A stretch of 32,000 nt of DNA from Blastocatellia bacterium (GTDB lineage: Bacteria > Acidobacteriota > Blastocatellia > HR10), in contig DATLZR010000093.1 in NCBI GenBank assembly GCA_035573895.1, positions 1-32,000 of the forward strand. The letters run 5' to 3'. How positions within the stretch are numbered: position 1 is the first letter of the stretch; every line of letters starts with the position of its first letter. The position numbers and the translations under genes are program-made. Shown here one piece after another: positions 11,839-19,025 of the stretch. The notes under the pieces are model-generated. The model worked only from the letters and a program-made list of their open reading frames with translations. It did no database searches and had not been told where the DNA came from.

Positions 11839-13641
11839 TCACCAGCAGGGGCCGTAATCGTCCATGTAGTCCTGTCGTACGACATTGTTTTCGCCTTTAT
11901 CGGGAGCCAATCGCGAGCGAGCCGAGGCGATATCCAGGCAAAGCCGCACGGTGCGACTGAGCGTGCGCAGATCATAAGGCTTATTCAATACACCAACGGC
12001 TCCCATCTGGAGCAATTCCGATGCTACCTCATTCCGACCATAACCGGTGACAAACAACACCCGTGTATTCGGACTCACCTGCCGCAACTGTTCCAGGACA
12101 TGCCGACCGTTCATCCGGGGAATCACCAGGTCCAGCAAAACGAGATCAAACTCCCCTCGATACCGACGATAAATCTCAACGGCCTCCGACCCATTCCTCG
12201 CCGTGAGCACCTCGTAGCCCAATGACTCCAGCAGCTTTTGTTCCAGTTCGAGAACCATCGGCTCATCCTCGACGACCAAAATGCGCTCGGTGCCTCGAGG
12301 GAATGTATCTTCCGGAAGCGAAAGCTCCGCTTTTTCAGCTACGGCCGCGCGGGGCAAAAAGATGTGAAATCGCGATCCTTGTCCGACGTTGCTCTCAACA
12401 TCAATCCACCCGCCATGCTCCTGCACGATCCGGTTGACGATAGAAAGCCCCAATCCGGTCCCTTTCCCCTTCCCCTTGGTGGTGAAGAACGGTTCAAAGA
12501 TGCGCGGACGGATCTCCGGGGGAATCCCTTGACCGGTATCGCTGACGGTGATCCGAACAAACGACTTCATCCGGCCAGTTGGAGAGCCACTGTTATCTCG
12601 CTCGGGGACATCCACCAGCTTTGTCTCAATCTCCAGGCGGCCACCGTTGGGCATGGCATCACGGGCGTTGACGGCCAGATTAATGAGTACCTGTTGCATC
12701 TGTGCGGGATTGGCTTCGACACACACGGTCTCCGCGACGGGCGCCACGCGAACCTCGATGTTCTCCGGCATCATCCGTTCAAGAAAGACCTTTAGTTCAT
12801 CCAGGCAGTCGCGCAGACGATAGGTTTCGCGTGGCGCGTCTGCCGGGCGGCTCAGGACGAGCATCTGTCGCACCAGTTGCCGGGCGCGATCACACAGTCG
12901 CAGCATCTCCTGCCACTTGCGTGACAGCGGATGCGAGCCCCCCATCTGCAGCCGGGCCAATTCGACGAACCCAATGATGGCCGCTAGAAGATTGTTGAAA
13001 TCATGAGCCGCCGCACTGGCCAGCATCCCGATGGTCTCCATCTTCTGAAGGTGAATATGCTGCTGCTGGAGAAGCTGGCAATGCTGGTGCTCCCGCTCGC
13101 ATTCCAACGCAAGCCCTAACCAGCGAGCAACGATCTCCAAGATCCAGACCTGCGGCTCGCTGAATTCCCCCGGACGGTCATCCAGTGCCCACACTACCCC
13201 CACTACTTCACCCACGGGGGTACGGATCGGCGTCCCAATATAAGACTCGATCTCCCAAGCTGTCAGCAAGCGATTCTCAGGAAACGCCTGATGTACTCCC
13301 CGGCAATAAAGCAGCGTCTGTTTCTGCTGCAGAACCTGAGCGGAAGGGTCATGCTCCAGCTCATAACGAACGCCGTGCTTGAGGTTGCCTCGCTCATAAA
13401 ACGCCAGGACTTCAAGAGCGTCACACTTACCCTTGCACTCGACTCCGGGGACTACTTCCTTTGGCGACGCCTCTTTCTCGATCTCTATCACCGACGGATC
13501 GACACCCACAAATACATATTTCATCTCCAGAACATCGGCCAGAAATTGAGCGGCCCGATCCATCAGGACATCCCGTCCCGCCTCCATCATCACTTGCTGT
13601 AGGTGAAGCAATTGCGTCTCGAACCAGTCTCTGTCAAACAT
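11839..13641 (-). CDS. Hybrid sensor histidine kinase (GAF, HisKA, HATPase, receiver)
   Basis: The 600-residue soluble signalling protein has no membrane segment. A GAF-like sensory domain occupies about residues 15-185 and includes a Cys pair (VECKGKC) and IGTPIRTPVGEVVGVVWALDD. The phosphoacceptor helix follows with AAAHDFNNLLAAIIGF (His213), then the ATPase domain with the N box (INLAVNARDAMPNGG), G1 box (DTGQGIPPEI) and G2 box (GTGLGLSIV). A C-terminal receiver domain has the acidic pair in ILVVEDE, phosphoacceptor Asp504 in LVLLDLVIP, and the Lys in LNKPYD. It would autophosphorylate and pass the phosphate to its own receiver and then to an unlinked partner. I chose the ATG at 13641 because the receptor-like domain begins there and AAGGGG lies eight bases upstream; the frame extends to 13884, but that extension is low-complexity and crosses a hairpin. 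There is no adjacent response regulator, so it is an orphan kinase. Confidence 0.9.
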   Translation of the reverse strand: MFDRDWFETQLLHLQQVMMEAGRDVLMDRAAQFLADVLEMKYVFVGVDPSVIEIEKEASPKEVVPGVECKGKCDALEVLAFYERGNLKHGVRYELEHDPSAQVLQQKQTLLYCRGVHQAFPENRLLTAWEIESYIGTPIRTPVGEVVGVVWALDDRPGEFSEPQVWILEIVARWLGLALECEREHQHCQLLQQQHIHLQKMETIGMLASAAAHDFNNLLAAIIGFVELARLQMGGSHPLSRKWQEMLRLCDRARQLVRQMLVLSRPADAPRETYRLRDCLDELKVFLERMMPENIEVRVAPVAETVCVEANPAQMQQVLINLAVNARDAMPNGGRLEIETKLVDVPERDNSGSPTGRMKSFVRITVSDTGQGIPPEIRPRIFEPFFTTKGKGKGTGLGLSIVNRIVQEHGGWIDVESNVGQGSRFHIFLPRAAVAEKAELSLPEDTFPRGTERILVVEDEPMVLELEQKLLESLGYEVLTARNGSEAVEIYRRYRGEFDLVLLDLVIPRMNGRHVLEQLRQVSPNTRVLFVTGYGRNEVASELLQMGAVGVLNKPYDLRTLSRTVRLCLDIASARSRLAPDKGENNVVRQDYMDDYGPCW

Positions 13642-13666
13642 AGGCCTATCCCCTTGTCTGTGAAAA

Positions 13667-13696
13667 TCACGGCTTGAGCACGGGCTCGGGCCGTGA
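13667..13696 (-). promoter_or_regulatory. Dyad-symmetric element upstream of the kinase gene
   Basis: A 7-bp perfect arm pair (TCACGGC/GCCGTGA) encloses a second pair (GAGC/GCTC) with a 4-nt loop. It lies 26 bases before the kinase start, so it could be an operator or a 5'-leader hairpin. No cognate regulator is identified. Confidence 0.4.
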
Positions 13697-13935
13697 AAAG
13701 CCATATTGAAAATTTCATCACCATCGGATCCACTGACAACACGAGCACTCCCCGGAATGCGCGGGGAGATCTGTCTCCTTCTGTGTCGCCTTTGACTCAC
13801 TTGAGAGCCTTTTTCCGACAGCATCTTCTTCCATTGCATAGAGCTAGCGCTGCATTCGCCCTCCGGCCATCTCTCCGCGAGCACCGGCCAGAGGCTACTA
13901 CGCCGGCTTTACCCTTTTTGCCCCTCTCCTCCATG
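13697..13935. other. Upstream region of the kinase, no gene seen
   Basis: This stretch should contain the kinase promoter on the minus strand. The open frames crossing it lack ribosome-binding sites and domains. Confidence 0.35.
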
Positions 13936-13942
13936 CACCTAA

Positions 13943-14040
13943 TATATTTTGCGTCCCGCCATTTTATTTGAGGCCGGGGAAGATTTTTTGAAAAAAATTT
14001 TTGCTCCCCCCTCAAATAAAATCGCCCGACGCAAAATATA
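13943..14040. repeat. 98-bp near-perfect palindrome
   Basis: The two 31-base arms (13943-13973 and 14010-14040) match in 28 positions when one is reverse-complemented; the mismatches cluster at two small patches. The core carries its own small palindrome (ATTTTTT-g-AAAAAAAT). Similarity weakly continues outward to about 13936 and 14049 (CACC near the ends). The arms are AT-rich (TATATTTTGCG, ATTTTATTTGAG) and unlike the surrounding GC-rich DNA. It could be a miniature inverted-repeat element, a strong bidirectional terminator, or a cruciform protein-binding site. No terminal duplication is obvious. Confidence 0.8.
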
Positions 14041-14054
14041 TATAGGGTGGATGA

Positions 14055-14196
14055 GGGCTGAGACCTTTCTGGGACAATGGAGCAAACGTGGGCTCAGGAG
14101 TGACAACTTACAGCTTCCAAGCGTGCTTGTGGCAGCCTCACTCCCCCCCCAATTCCGCATGGCTGCCCCCCTACAGCTCAGAAAAGGTCTCAGCCC
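14055..14196. repeat. Inverted-repeat-bounded structured element of about 140 bp
   Basis: The outer arms GGGCTGAGACCTTTCTG (14055-14071) and CAGAAAAGGTCTCAGCCC (14179-14196) pair with a single-base bulge. Inside, GGAGTGA (14097-14103) pairs with TCACTCC (14138-14144), and GGCAGCC (14131-14137) pairs with GGCTGCC (14161-14167). The last two pairings overlap in span and are mutually awkward, as in alternative folds. TTT follows the right arm. It could encode a small structured RNA on either strand, or be a second miniature element next to the palindrome. I do not recognise 4.5S RNA, tmRNA, RNase P or 6S motifs in it. Confidence 0.55.
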
Positions 14197-14477
14197 CTTT
14201 AAGATTTGCATTCGATCAGCAGGCTCGTTCTGGAGTTCGCCGCCCTTTTTACGAGAATCGCCCATGCGCTCATGCATGCCACGAGGAAGTGAAAACGAGT
14301 TCGCTCAACGGATAAAAAGGCCACCCGACAGTTTATTCGTTGGGATGATCGAAGGGGTTAGATTGAGTCAGTACAGCGCATGAAGCTTCGGGCTTTCAGC
14401 CTGTAACAGATTGCAGTTATTCATCTCAGATGCCCCCCACCAAAACGAACCAAACCACAAAAGGAGGAGGATAAAAA

Positions 14478-14654
14478 ATGACACTCATGCGATGGATCAT
14501 TCTTGCGTTGCTCATGAATCTGTTTCTGGCTCGTCCCGTTTTTGTTCCTCGCACCGATCTTCAGCCCATCGGCCAGGGGAATCAGGTGGAGGCAACCACA
14601 GATCCAATTATCGGCCCTGGATGCTGTGTCATGGGCCTTGATTGCTGCAAGTAA
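14478..14654 (+). CDS. 58-residue exported peptide with C-terminal double-CC motif
   Basis: This short gene is supported by a near-ideal ribosome-binding site (AAGGAGGAGG at 14461-14470, seven bases before the ATG) and a clean TAA stop. The product has a hydrophobic N-terminal segment (about residues 5-18, RWIILALLMNLFLA) that fits a signal or membrane anchor, a polar middle (about 24-42), and a cysteine-rich tail GPGCCVMGLDCCK (residues 46-58). Two adjacent Cys pairs separated by five residues could form disulfides, bind a metal, carry lipids, or be modified as in a processed peptide. No processing enzyme or paralogue lies beside it. It sits alone in a 2-kb region without large genes. I do not recognise the family. 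Confidence 0.65.
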   Translation: MTLMRWIILALLMNLFLARPVFVPRTDLQPIGQGNQVEATTDPIIGPGCCVMGLDCCK

Positions 14655-15006
14655 TTCCTGGTCAACAGCGCAAGATTTTTTGACATTTGCCATAAGCGCG
14701 GGGTGAGGCGGCGGGCAGTCGTTACTGGCTTGCATTCGGACCGTTAGGCCAGTTAGGGTTCGGATGAAAAGGTAAGGAGGCTCCGACCGGTTTAGGCGCT
14801 TCCGCATCCGGTTCAATCGCTCAAAGGTGTGAATGGCCCGGCGGTCCCGTCATCGTCCTGAGGTGGGCTGCCCGCGTGCGCGTTTCTGGAGTTTACCCGC
14901 GCTCACCCCAGGCCAGATTCGGACCGCCTGTTTTGCGGGCTCTCGAGCGAAATGGGGATTGACCTTTGGGCAAAGCCAACCCAGTTCACGCTGACGTATT
15001 TCCTAC
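14655..15006. other. Non-coding stretch downstream of the small peptide gene
   Basis: No supported gene. Weak hairpins occur, for example CATTCGGAC with GTTCGGATG near 14738-14770. A minus frame from 15298 to 14903 is open but lacks a ribosome-binding site and lies over repeats, so it is not called. Confidence 0.35.
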
Positions 15007-15237
15007 TGAGCCTGCAAGAGCAGGCGTTCGAGTCTAGCCTGAGGCGAAGTCCTGAGCCAGGCCCCATCAGAGGTTGATTTATTCCTTGAGCCTGCATCAG
15101 CAGGCAAGCAAGTCTAGACCGAAGTGAAGTTGTAAGCCGAGGCTCATTCAGGTTGTCGTGTTCCGTATTGAGCTCGCGGCAGCAGGCAACCGAATACAGC
15201 CTGGGGCGAGCAAAAATCGAGCCCCAGGACACCGGCC
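15007..15237. repeat. Three diverged tandem repeats of about 80 bp, each with a leading hairpin
   Basis: Units begin at 15007, 15087 and 15169 (80 and 82 bp apart; the third is shorter). Each opens with TGAGCCTGC-NNNN-GCAGGC or a variant, a 6-bp stem with a 4-nt loop in units 1 and 2, imperfect in unit 3. Shared downstream words are GAGTCTAGCCTGAGGCGAAG, AAGTCTAGACCGAAGTGAAG and CGAATACAGCCTGGGGCGAG, and each unit is preceded by a T-rich TTCC motif. Divergence between units is high, so the array is old. It has no clear reading frame. Confidence 0.7.
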
Positions 15238-15675
15238 CCACCCAATTCACCCCAAGTCCCATAGGGGGCCGGCCCATCGGCTGACGCTCACGGGCCAACG
15301 GAGAACATCATGCCCTTTGTCCTAATCCCCTTTGGGCCGCCCGCTCGTGCCCCATCCAGATTCTGACAGCCCCGGAAGCCCAAGATAGCGGGTGAGAAAA
15401 TTTTCCGACACTACGGCTCGCGCGATCTCATGAGACCCCCTGTGCCCTTAACTCAACGGCATAAGTCCTTCAGTTGTCCCCAATCGAGTTTGAGATTCGA
15501 CAGCTATCGTCCTCTTCATGAGAAGCCCTCTCATTGTGGATGATGCTACAAAGGCCACTTTATCCCCCTGGCCGCGCAGGCAGGACGTAAGAAGGCGGAC
15601 GCATCTAAAAACTAACACTGCGTTGAGGACGTGCGCAGGTAAAGCACGAAGAACGCTATAATGGCAGGCCCGCTC
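15238..15675. other. Non-coding stretch with an isolated TATAAT
   Basis: No supported gene. A perfect -10 hexamer TATAAT occurs on the plus strand at 15657-15662, but no matching -35 is seen at 16-18 bp. If used, it would give a transcript running antisense to the end of the CHAT gene. Confidence 0.3.
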
Positions 15676-15909
15676 TCACTCGCAAGATGCGAGCGGCAAG
15701 GGTACGGGCAATTGAAAATCTCTACAGGTCCTCCTGATCCCGCTTGCACCTCGCAGGGGAATTTCTGTGTCCCTTGTAAGATTAAGACCCTGTCCCTCGA
15801 TGACCAAACATGTCGCTCCTGACGGAGCTTGCGGCCCCTTGCAGTATACACATGTCTCCCCTGGACCGGAGTTCGCTGTCTGGAATCGGCAGATCAGGCT
15901 GAACCACAT
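15676..15909 (-). CDS. Possible 77-residue cysteine-containing hypothetical protein
   Basis: The frame begins at an ATG preceded by AAGG five bases upstream and lies 53 bases past the stop of the CHAT protein on the same strand. The product has six Cys (including CVYC) but no signal peptide, and matches no family I know. Two other minus frames are also open over the region, which lowers confidence. It may be a real small downstream gene or decayed sequence. Confidence 0.25.
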   Translation of the reverse strand: MWFSLICRFQTANSGPGETCVYCKGPQAPSGATCLVIEGQGLNLTRDTEIPLRGASGIRRTCRDFQLPVPLPLASCE

Positions 15910-15962
15910 TCACGCCTTGCACTACAGGTGGTAAATTCCCAGGGGGATCTTCAACACCCGCA

Positions 15963-18900
15963 CTACCGCGGCGATCCGATGAGCACAAACGGAGCCCAGG
16001 CAACCGGCCATGCTCCCCGACGGAGAAATTCAATCTTGGCCCGTTGTAACGCCCGCGCAGGACCGAGGCCGGCATCGAGCATCCCCCGATAGAACGCCGC
16101 CATCAGCCTCTCCGCCGAAGGATCCTCCACTTTCCACAACGATCCGCACACGCGGCGTGCTCCAGCGAGCATAAAGGCCCGGCTGAGCCCGATGACTCCC
16201 TCGCCGGATGTCATCTGTCCGACTCCCGTCTCGCAGGCGCTCAACACGACGAGATCGGCATTAATTCTCAGTCGGGCAATTTCGGCTGCCGTGAGCACCC
16301 AATCATTTTGTCCCTGGTCGCCGCTACCGGAAAAGATGAGCGCAGAGAGTTCCCCATCTTTTTCGTCAGCAACTCCATGCGTAGCCAGATGCAGCACGCG
16401 ATAGGTTGAAAGATCGGCTCGGGTGAACTTTTCCTTTCTCGCCTCTTGTCCCAGCCACAACGTCGGCCGCCACCGTCGTTGTCTGGCCAGGCGGGCGATC
16501 TCCACAACTTCCTTCCTCGTTGAGGGAATTCGCTGCAAGCCTGAGCGCAGTCGGGACGGGTCGGTGATTACGCTGAGGGAGTTTGCCTGTATTGACGACG
16601 TGACCTTCACCCACGAAGAGATGTTTCTAAGAAGCGAGGTCAACAGCGTTTGGAAGCGCGCCGTCAAGGCGAGATGTTGGTCCCGCTCGCCGATACCGCG
16701 TTGCTTGGCGATGTCCGCCCCACCGGAAGGCGACGACTGTCGGGGTATCGGCTCGCCGAAAACGGGGTCGCCGACAAGCAGTACCTCTTTTCCCGCTTGC
16801 ATTGGAGGACGGCGGTCAATCTCGGCCAGAACCGAGATGGAGGGCGCGTAGGTTACAGCATGATCCTCGATGAGGTAACGCGGAGCCTGCCCGTGATCAT
16901 CAGGCCCACTGCTGACGAGGGCTTCAAAGGCAAGGTTGTGGAGCATCCGATCCGGTACGATGATCAGGTCGCGGCCGCGAATTAGATCGGCGGCCGGCTT
17001 CACCAGCATCCTGTAAAGCTCGTGGGCAATATGCAGATAATCGCGCCACGCTTCCGCCGTCCGCTCGTCCGGGTTTACCTGGCGGCGAATTTGCGCCCGC
17101 CATTCGGTCACCGCCTTTCCGATCGTCGCCCAGTCGGGCAACTTGAAGAGGTATTCGCCCTGGCGCGTCAGAACGATGAGAAAGCTCTCCTGAATCCCCA
17201 ACTGATAAAAGAGAATAGCCGCGTTGGGATAGGCGGCGAGATAGTGCTCGCGGACCTCCTCGGCAGTAAGAGGCGAAACACTCGAAACCTCCAACCCGCC
17301 GGCCTGAGCCCTCAATTGGGCCCCCAACTTCAGCCGCTCGGCGATAAGTCGCTCTCGCTCTTCTTTGAGCCGGCCGATATCAGCAACATCAACGCCGATG
17401 CCGGAACGGGCCAGCACAATCCGCCGTCCAAAAGCAGAAATTTGCTCCAGAAGCTGCTGCTCCTGCCCGAGAAGTTCGGGATCAACCGTTGGTCGTGACT
17501 GCCGATTCAACGCTGCTAGATGTACAAGAAGCGCGCGGCTCCGACTGCGTTCAGCAAAATTGAACGCCTGGCGGATGTATTCGCGGCTCGGCTGCTTTGT
17601 ATTCAGCGCGTTCAGAATTCGGAGAATCTGTACGGAAATGGCCTTTGATTGGGCCAGGAAATCCTGTCGTAAATCTTCGGCCGGTTCGCGCAACCAGGCC
17701 GATTCGGTCGTGTGCCAGGCTTCCAGACACAGGCGCAGAGCCTCTTCGTAATTTCCCCGAAGCATCTCGCCCGTGGCTTGCGTCTGAAGCGCAATCCGTC
17801 GCGGCTCCGGATCCTCATCCTCAGACGTGGTGAGAGCGGCGGCTTCGCGGGCAGCGTGAACCATTTCGTCCAAGCGATTGAGTTTGTAGTAGGTCATGCT
17901 CATGAGCGTGAGGATGGAGATTTCCTCCGCCCGATGACCGAGGCGATGAGCCGCCTGACGAGCTTCCTGAGCTAACCGCAATCCCTCTTCAAATTTCCCC
18001 GTCGCAGCCAACCCCCACGCGAGCGTGTAGGTGCTTCTTACCTGTTGGGATGCGCTCACCTTCTCCCGCAGCGTGTAGGCGCGGTGAGCATAGGTGAGGG
18101 CTTTTTCCTGATCCTGACCGAAATAGAAGCCATAGAGCGAGGCGTAAACGCGCACCAAAGCCGAAGGCGATCCCGACTGTTCGGCCAGGTTGAGGGCCCT
18201 GCGGTAATGAAGTTCGGCCAGGTCGCGCTTCTGAATGACGTGATAGAGATCGCCGAGTTGAGCGCGAACCATAGCTTCTGCTTCGCCGGCGGCACGAAGT
18301 CGAGCGCTGAGTGTCAACGCCCGTTCCAGTTCGCCAAGCGCCTCATCATAACGGCGTCGGTCGGTGAGCATGGTTCCCCGTTCGAGGGCCACGGCCCACT
18401 GACCAAAGAGAAATCCCGCCTGTTCGGCGACCTGTCGGCTACGGGCGAAATAGATCTCGGCCTGTTTCCATTGACGCCGCTCGCGGAAGAATTGACCCAG
18501 CGCGAGATTAAGCAAGCTGATGGCCCGCTGGCTGCGGCGTTGTTCGGCCCATTGCCGACCGCGCTCGTAATAGGCCCGGACGCGGTCTTCATCCCAGGGC
18601 CTTGCATGGTGACCCGCTCGCAATGACAGGCGATAGCTTCCATAATGATCGGCCATTGCCCCGGAGACGATCACCGTATAGCGCCCGGTCACAGGCAGCG
18701 TCGTGCAAATCTGGGCGTTGAAGAACCAGCCCTCGTCATCGTTCCAGGCAATCTCACGACCTTTGGGATCGAGCAAAACGAGGTAGGTGTCGAACTCGTA
18801 GGACTCAGCCGTGAGAGTAATCGGCTGGCCTTGCTGACCATCGAACCGCCAGCGATGTTCGTGCCCGAGCGGAGGCCGGCGCCTCAGCGGATCGGATTCC

Positions 18901-19025
18901 GTGAGAACAGCATCGTAGTGTTGGTCGAGGTGAATGGTGAACGGGCGATAGGGGACATGATCTCCCGCCACCGTACAGATGGTCAGAAAGAGCGTGGAAC
19001 CAACGAACCTCCGACCAACTCTCAC
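15963..19025 (-). CDS. PPC-TPR-CHAT domain protein (caspase-like protease fold)
   Basis: The 1020-residue product starts at a GTG with AAGGAGGG six bases upstream. An N-terminal signal-like segment (about 8-20) is followed by a PPC-type beta-sandwich (about 35-135, with WRFDGQQGQPITLTAESYEFDTYLVLLD). A long array of tetratricopeptide repeats (about 150-480) and a helical linker come next. The C-terminal CHAT domain (about 690-1020) keeps the caspase-like dyad: His883 in LHLATHG and Cys931 in LSACETG, with GEGVIGLSRAFMLAGA and SLWKVED after it. CHAT proteases are often set off by TPR-sensed partners, and in several defence or cell-death systems they cleave dedicated targets. Here the leader and PPC domain suggest an exported or envelope form, as in many acidobacterial copies. 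No gasdermin, Csx/Cas or other defence gene is adjacent, so the target is unknown. Confidence 0.9.
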   Translation of the reverse strand: MRVGRRFVGSTLFLTICTVAGDHVPYRPFTIHLDQHYDAVLTESDPLRRRPPLGHEHRWRFDGQQGQPITLTAESYEFDTYLVLLDPKGREIAWNDDEGWFFNAQICTTLPVTGRYTVIVSGAMADHYGSYRLSLRAGHHARPWDEDRVRAYYERGRQWAEQRRSQRAISLLNLALGQFFRERRQWKQAEIYFARSRQVAEQAGFLFGQWAVALERGTMLTDRRRYDEALGELERALTLSARLRAAGEAEAMVRAQLGDLYHVIQKRDLAELHYRRALNLAEQSGSPSALVRVYASLYGFYFGQDQEKALTYAHRAYTLREKVSASQQVRSTYTLAWGLAATGKFEEGLRLAQEARQAAHRLGHRAEEISILTLMSMTYYKLNRLDEMVHAAREAAALTTSEDEDPEPRRIALQTQATGEMLRGNYEEALRLCLEAWHTTESAWLREPAEDLRQDFLAQSKAISVQILRILNALNTKQPSREYIRQAFNFAERSRSRALLVHLAALNRQSRPTVDPELLGQEQQLLEQISAFGRRIVLARSGIGVDVADIGRLKEERERLIAERLKLGAQLRAQAGGLEVSSVSPLTAEEVREHYLAAYPNAAILFYQLGIQESFLIVLTRQGEYLFKLPDWATIGKAVTEWRAQIRRQVNPDERTAEAWRDYLHIAHELYRMLVKPAADLIRGRDLIIVPDRMLHNLAFEALVSSGPDDHGQAPRYLIEDHAVTYAPSISVLAEIDRRPPMQAGKEVLLVGDPVFGEPIPRQSSPSGGADIAKQRGIGERDQHLALTARFQTLLTSLLRNISSWVKVTSSIQANSLSVITDPSRLRSGLQRIPSTRKEVVEIARLARQRRWRPTLWLGQEARKEKFTRADLSTYRVLHLATHGVADEKDGELSALIFSGSGDQGQNDWVLTAAEIARLRINADLVVLSACETGVGQMTSGEGVIGLSRAFMLAGARRVCGSLWKVEDPSAERLMAAFYRGMLDAGLGPARALQRAKIEFLRRGAWPVAWAPFVLIGSPR

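Follow-up and report, generated by a model that had tools for sequence, protein, structure and literature searches.

A 58-residue mini-protein family with a C-terminal CC-x5-CC motif and its genomic link to a TPR-CHAT protease subfamily in Acidobacteriota

We analysed a stretch of 32,000 nucleotides (hereafter the window), contig C93 of a Blastocatellia genome of 3.9 Mb in 184 contigs, and found that a 58-codon ORF within it is a real gene under strongly purifying substitution. Its product represents a genuine new mini-protein family, previously unnamed. The gene is strictly linked in the genomes to a TPR-CHAT (caspase-like) protease, usually together with a sigma/anti-sigma pair, a link that the preliminary description of this DNA did not include, and the peptide probably serves a cell-envelope signalling pathway as its small ligand or substrate.

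Conservation and features of the peptide gene

The ORF runs from the ATG at 14478 to the stop codon at 14652–14654 and translates as MTLMRWIILALLMNLFLARPVFVPRTDLQPIGQGNQVEATTDPIIGPGCCVMGLDCCK, ending in the tail GPGCCVMGLDCCK (Table 1). Reading it directly confirmed the ribosome-binding site, the hydrophobic N-terminus and the CC-x5-CC tail named in the preliminary description. Our first homologue search, in which the single peptide sequence was compared with 58 genomes, gave weak matches that were clear homologues once inspected. Ten homologues were found in Acidobacteriota, comprising one in each of the five sister-genus genomes, two copies in G008 (G008a plus one more), which belongs to another family of the same order, and three in another class of the phylum, where a profile search of 396 genomes detected two in G166 and one in G181. 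A profile search across the class produced no convincing additional homologue, and the matches at E 0.004–0.1 in other genomes were too weak to be counted. Profile matches in G361, G243 and G276 (E ~6e-4) were also rejected; they had no CC-x5-CC motif and overlapped a larger, annotated-looking ORF on the opposite strand.

Table 1. Features of the window bearing on the peptide gene and its neighbours
Feature	Position	Strand	Basis
CDS of exported (predicted) CC-x5-CC peptide, 58 aa	14478..14654	+	ORF reading, homologues, purifying selection
Ribosome-binding site AAGGAGGAGG	14461..14470	+	Read directly, 7 nt ahead of peptide ATG
N-terminal hydrophobic segment, residues 3–18	14484..14531	+	Hydropathy in 11/11 members
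CC-x5-CC motif (C49, C50, C56, C57)	14622..14648	+	Four Cys invariant, 11/11 sequences
Hybrid histidine kinase/response regulator, possible accessory gene	11839..13884	-	Pfam GAF/HisKA/HATPase/RR
Dispersed repeat sequence, part of the 1.3-kb peptide–protease gap	15099..15470	.	Partial copies elsewhere, 69–77% identity
Partner gene: exported/anchored (predicted) PPC-like beta-sandwich + TPR + CHAT (caspase-like) protease	15963..19025	-	Pfam, fold model, synteny

Across the alignment of all 11 members, neither the start Met nor any of the four Cys varied and W6 was present in 10 sequences, while the linker and the rest of the tail were variable; a purine-rich SD motif preceded the gene in all 11 members. 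For the five sister-genus orthologues, which share 82–90% nucleotide identity, pooled pN/pS of the peptide frame was 0.165. No value this small arose in 500 column permutations of the alignment (mean 0.80), and pN/pS in the remaining five frames of the region ranged from 0.33 to 7.5. The antisense ORF at 14421–14816 was rejected as a true gene on the basis of the higher pN/pS in the reverse frames. The homologues with conserved Cys and ribosome-binding site and the dN/dS below 1 that the preliminary description had asked for were thus both present, and a search for frame-breaking indels, which it had named as evidence to the contrary, found none.

No member of the family matched Pfam at E<=10 (0/11). 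The best NCBIfam match (E 0.0026) was weak and far from convincing, PADLOC gave no credible match, and full-text searches returned no literature on the peptide; the family is therefore still without a name, as had been stated at the outset. Residues 3–18 probably form a Sec signal peptide or an N-in membrane anchor, as predicted from the sequence, and hydropathy analysis placed a single basic residue before the hydrophobic core in 11/11 members. The presence of this predicted segment throughout the family supports the earlier suggestion of an exported peptide. In an AlphaFold2 model, residues 3–17 formed a helix (mean pLDDT 85 across residues 1–10) and the rest was disordered, a combination of helix and disorder that is uninformative. 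The alignment contained no lipobox Cys after the signal segment, every Cys being located in the C-terminal motif, and the CxxCH heme motif was likewise absent from the peptide. Disulfide bonding of the Cys pairs is plausible, and metal, heme or lipid roles are possible.

The preliminary description had portrayed the gene as isolated and flanked by palindromes. The interval 13642–15962 indeed contains no large gene, provided that the hybrid histidine kinase begins at its likely start, an internal ATG at 13641, but in relatives the peptide gene is fixed beside the CHAT-protease gene. Its apparent isolation in the window arises because dispersed repeats occupy part of the 1.3-kb gap. The palindromes were found as described, namely an imperfect AT-rich hairpin at 13942–14041 (48-nt arms, 79% complementary, 4-nt loop), of which no second copy was detected in the genome, and exact 14-nt palindrome arms at 14055/14183.

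The repeat family at 15099–15470 was also present on several other contigs, and three degenerate tandem units of ~80 bp (GAGCCTGC..CAGCAGGC) were located beside or inside it at 15007–15190. Directly upstream of the peptide gene, 14248–14345 is a dispersed repeat of ~98 bp with about a dozen further genomic copies at 78–83% identity and no strong DNA fold (z -0.26). Just upstream of the ribosome-binding site, the genomes of the sister genus share a conserved block (CCTTGATTTTT..) along with a short hairpin (L010 8588–8705 and its equivalents in G002–G005); these are a possible promoter or leader structure, and only two pairs of the hairpin showed double changes among the five sequences. At another locus (L016), the ORF at 14508–14942, ~6 kb from a peptide copy, encodes an exported-looking protein of 144 aa whose tail (TCANTCQSTCSNTC...) is very rich in Cys and Thr. 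Neither Rfam elements nor tRNAs were detected within the window.

A TPR-CHAT protease and sigma/anti-sigma genes as genomic partners

The peptide gene and the CHAT gene were convergent (tail-to-tail) in 10/10 assembled loci, the G002 locus being split at a contig edge. In relatives, the stop codon of the CHAT gene was located 21–163 bp from the peptide gene, compared with 1308 bp in the window. Using thresholds of E<1e-5 for the peptide profile and >800 bits for the CHAT subfamily, we found the two in the identical six genomes and in no others of the 396-genome phylum sample. Copy number was also matched, with two peptides and two CHAT subfamily genes in both G008 and G166. G006 and G007, from the same order, had neither gene, and G009 contained two N-terminal CHAT-subfamily fragments cut by contig ends, with no peptide recovered. 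More distant CHAT genes had no CC-x5-CC peptide next to them in the loci that we scanned; in the larger surrounding regions, the survey covered ORFs of 120 aa or more.

The partner protein has roughly 1000 residues. It begins with a signal or anchor, which is followed by a PPC-like beta-sandwich and a TPR superhelix, and the CHAT domain is at the C-terminus. Pfam CHAT (PF12770) matched at E=1.6e-64 (218.6 bits, cutoff 24), together with TPR_12 and, weakly, PPC. The putative catalytic codons are those of His (16377–16379) and Cys (16233–16235); both residues, in the contexts ATH and SxCETG, were invariant among 10 CHAT orthologues, proteolysis itself being predicted, and the Cys aligned with the Craspase CHAT Cys with a weak score. 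In the fold model of the partner protein the CHAT domain was only moderately modelled; Foldseek matches of the model included TPR proteins, the Craspase TPR-CHAT protein, separase and the Myxococcus anti-sigma factor DdvA. Because the CHAT protein carries an N-terminal signal or TM segment and a PPC-like beta-sandwich, the peptide and the protease are predicted to share one compartment.

Upstream of the CHAT gene in relatives, contigs permitting, were genes for an ECF sigma factor (TIGR02937 at 60.8 and 46 bits, cutoff 42.9) and an anti-sigma-like protein. The latter has an HxxxCxxC motif, one TM helix and a C-terminal TPR region, with the motif and the TM helix found in 9/9 proteins; the zf-HC2 match in Pfam was weak and under the cutoff. 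In the window's genome, the pair is on contig C54, where it adjoins the end of a kinase/response-regulator gene and not the CHAT gene (anti-sigma homologue, 267 bits), and therefore tight linkage of both genes is not essential. Inspection by eye found no ECF promoter shared by the peptide gene and the sigma operon. The hybrid histidine kinase gene is divergent from the peptide gene, an arrangement also found in G008a, G166b and G181. Since hybrid kinases abound in these genomes and only in G181 was the neighbouring one the best match, membership of the kinase in the module is tentative.

Other CHAT operons of the order (L082, L083 and L086) were also accompanied by sigma and/or anti-sigma-like genes. 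Some of them were followed by a different gene, whose product has 509 aa and Cys in its tail in L082 and 629 aa in L086; this suggests an interchangeable partner slot.

A candidate envelope signalling module and alternative readings

We propose, with moderate confidence, that the oxidised Cys-pair tail is recognised by the TPR-CHAT protein, whether as ligand, inhibitor or substrate, and thereby gates the anti-sigma/sigma pair. The module would comprise the peptide, the exported TPR-CHAT protease, the membrane anti-sigma factor with its zinc finger inside and its TPR domain outside, and the ECF sigma factor. The peptide, with its short hydrophobic N-terminus, disordered linker of 17–27 residues and C-terminal CC-x5-CC knot, would be exported or membrane-anchored. 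Because both the peptide and the protease bear predicted export signals, they could meet in the envelope, into which the anti-sigma TPR domain would also project. The Cys pairs are likely oxidised, given that a VKOR-DsbA fusion is encoded in the window's genome; VKOR was undetected in G166 and G181, and DsbA in G181. Peptide binding is common among TPR domains. In the scheme that we infer, the disulfide-bonded tail would dock on the TPR-CHAT protein or on the anti-sigma TPR domain, and the docked peptide, in whichever direction regulation runs, would determine protease action on the anti-sigma factor; such action would free the ECF sigma factor. The linker has no conserved basic residue or other cleavage-site-like position, and G008a lacks any basic residue, so a ligand or inhibitor appears somewhat likelier than a substrate. 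The peptide gene is convergent and not co-transcribed with the protease gene, which counts against this module.

Among known systems, a close parallel is the output arm of Craspase. There, an ECF sigma factor is held back by Csx30, which the TPR-CHAT protein Csx29 cuts, so that the inhibition is lifted; activation reaches the CHAT active site through the TPR part (PMC10028731). In both the type III-E arm (Csx29, Csx30 and CASP-sigma) and the genes described here, a TPR-CHAT protease with a His/Cys dyad is encoded alongside an ECF sigma factor and an inhibitor of sigma. Unlike in Craspase, the protease here has a signal or anchor and a PPC-like domain, a membrane ZAS-TM-TPR protein takes the place of Csx30 as inhibitor, and an exported Cys peptide is added. 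Inspection of the large ORFs at these loci revealed no Cas7-11/gRAMP and no CRISPR/crRNA. The CHAT partner is not Craspase, because it scored 28.3 bits against the Csx29 model NF041237, far under the cutoff of 300. By analogy, the CHAT module may nevertheless work like the Craspase output arm.

The CHAT model also matched DdvA of Myxococcus xanthus, the membrane anti-sigma factor of the ECF sigma factor DdvS (8rw5 and 8rot; Foldseek E ~3e-9), with a TM-score of only 0.13, and the TPR repeats may carry the match. An antiphage island is under the control of DdvS (PMC12288465). The two systems share an ECF sigma/anti-sigma setting, but here the anti-sigma and TPR-CHAT parts reside in different proteins, accompanied by a Cys peptide. 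As in ECF anti-sigma pathways of the RseA/RsiW type, in which envelope proteases bring about release, a single-pass membrane anti-sigma factor combines a cytoplasmic sigma-binding part with an extracytoplasmic sensor part; unlike in those pathways, the candidate envelope protease is CHAT/caspase-like and not DegS or PrsW, its proteolytic role being putative. Outside bacteria, the precursors of framework V (T-superfamily) conotoxins from cone snails consist of a signal, a pro-region and a C-terminal CC-x5-CC tail. The likeness is one of layout alone. The peptide has no Pfam match, is bacterial and has a fixed protease partner, and we treat the likeness as convergence or coincidence. We regard the module as a new variation on the protease/anti-sigma theme with a putative function. 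In its most specific form, this would be a CRISPR-independent extracytoplasmic switch, in which the peptide triggers or plugs a TPR-CHAT protease that cuts the membrane anti-sigma factor and releases the ECF sigma factor; we put this version forward only tentatively.

Other readings of the same genes can be weighed against this proposal. The invariance of two adjacent Cys pairs in 11/11 sequences would suit a metal or redox sensor or scavenger, with the four Cys binding a soft metal (Cu, Zn, Hg or As) or switching between the thiol and disulfide forms, a state that the CHAT/sigma module would read. An oxidative stress response is known for some zinc anti-sigma factors (PMC8999054), in favour of this reading. 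We consider it unlikely, as no metal transporter or metal-resistance gene was conserved beside the peptide and the alignment held no further conserved metal ligand (His, Met). The peptide could instead be a secreted disulfide-rich effector or signal, for instance an antimicrobial or a pheromone. Its maturation would then depend on the CHAT protease and its detection on the kinase or the anti-sigma factor. A caspase-like protease is encoded next door and the layout is precursor-like (signal, variable linker, Cys-knot tail), but selection was purifying instead of diversifying, the linker has no conserved processing site, and ORFs and selected Pfam scans revealed no conserved neighbour recognisable as a dedicated exporter gene, an immunity gene or a gene for RiPP modification, which makes this role quite unlikely.

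The short helix, the invariant basic residue, the almost invariant Trp and a signal-peptidase site that is only weak in some members are what a membrane-anchored adaptor would display. Its segment would remain uncleaved and its Cys tail would tether or dimerise the protease at the inner membrane, with no regulatory proteolysis of the anti-sigma factor. The segment, however, is short (~12–16 hydrophobic residues) and nearer to a signal peptide, and the CHAT protein has an N-terminal anchor or signal of its own; we judge an adaptor very unlikely. Finally, the small size of the ORF and its repeat-rich intergenic setting are compatible with a spurious ORF with chance cysteines, a reading that is refuted by in-frame conservation across genera and classes, purifying selection and the fixed neighbour.

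TPR-CHAT proteins are widespread, with, to our knowledge, few partners and triggers known outside CRISPR, and our full-text searches on them returned solely Craspase-related or incidental papers. The one-to-one co-occurrence of the peptide with one TPR-CHAT subfamily, alongside a sigma/anti-sigma pair, gives a concrete partner candidate that can be tested, in a size class of mini-proteins (58 aa) that escapes family libraries. Under the proposed gating of the protease by the peptide, caspase-type signalling would extend to the bacterial envelope, and the peptide would be the first known member of a new protease-gating mini-protein family.
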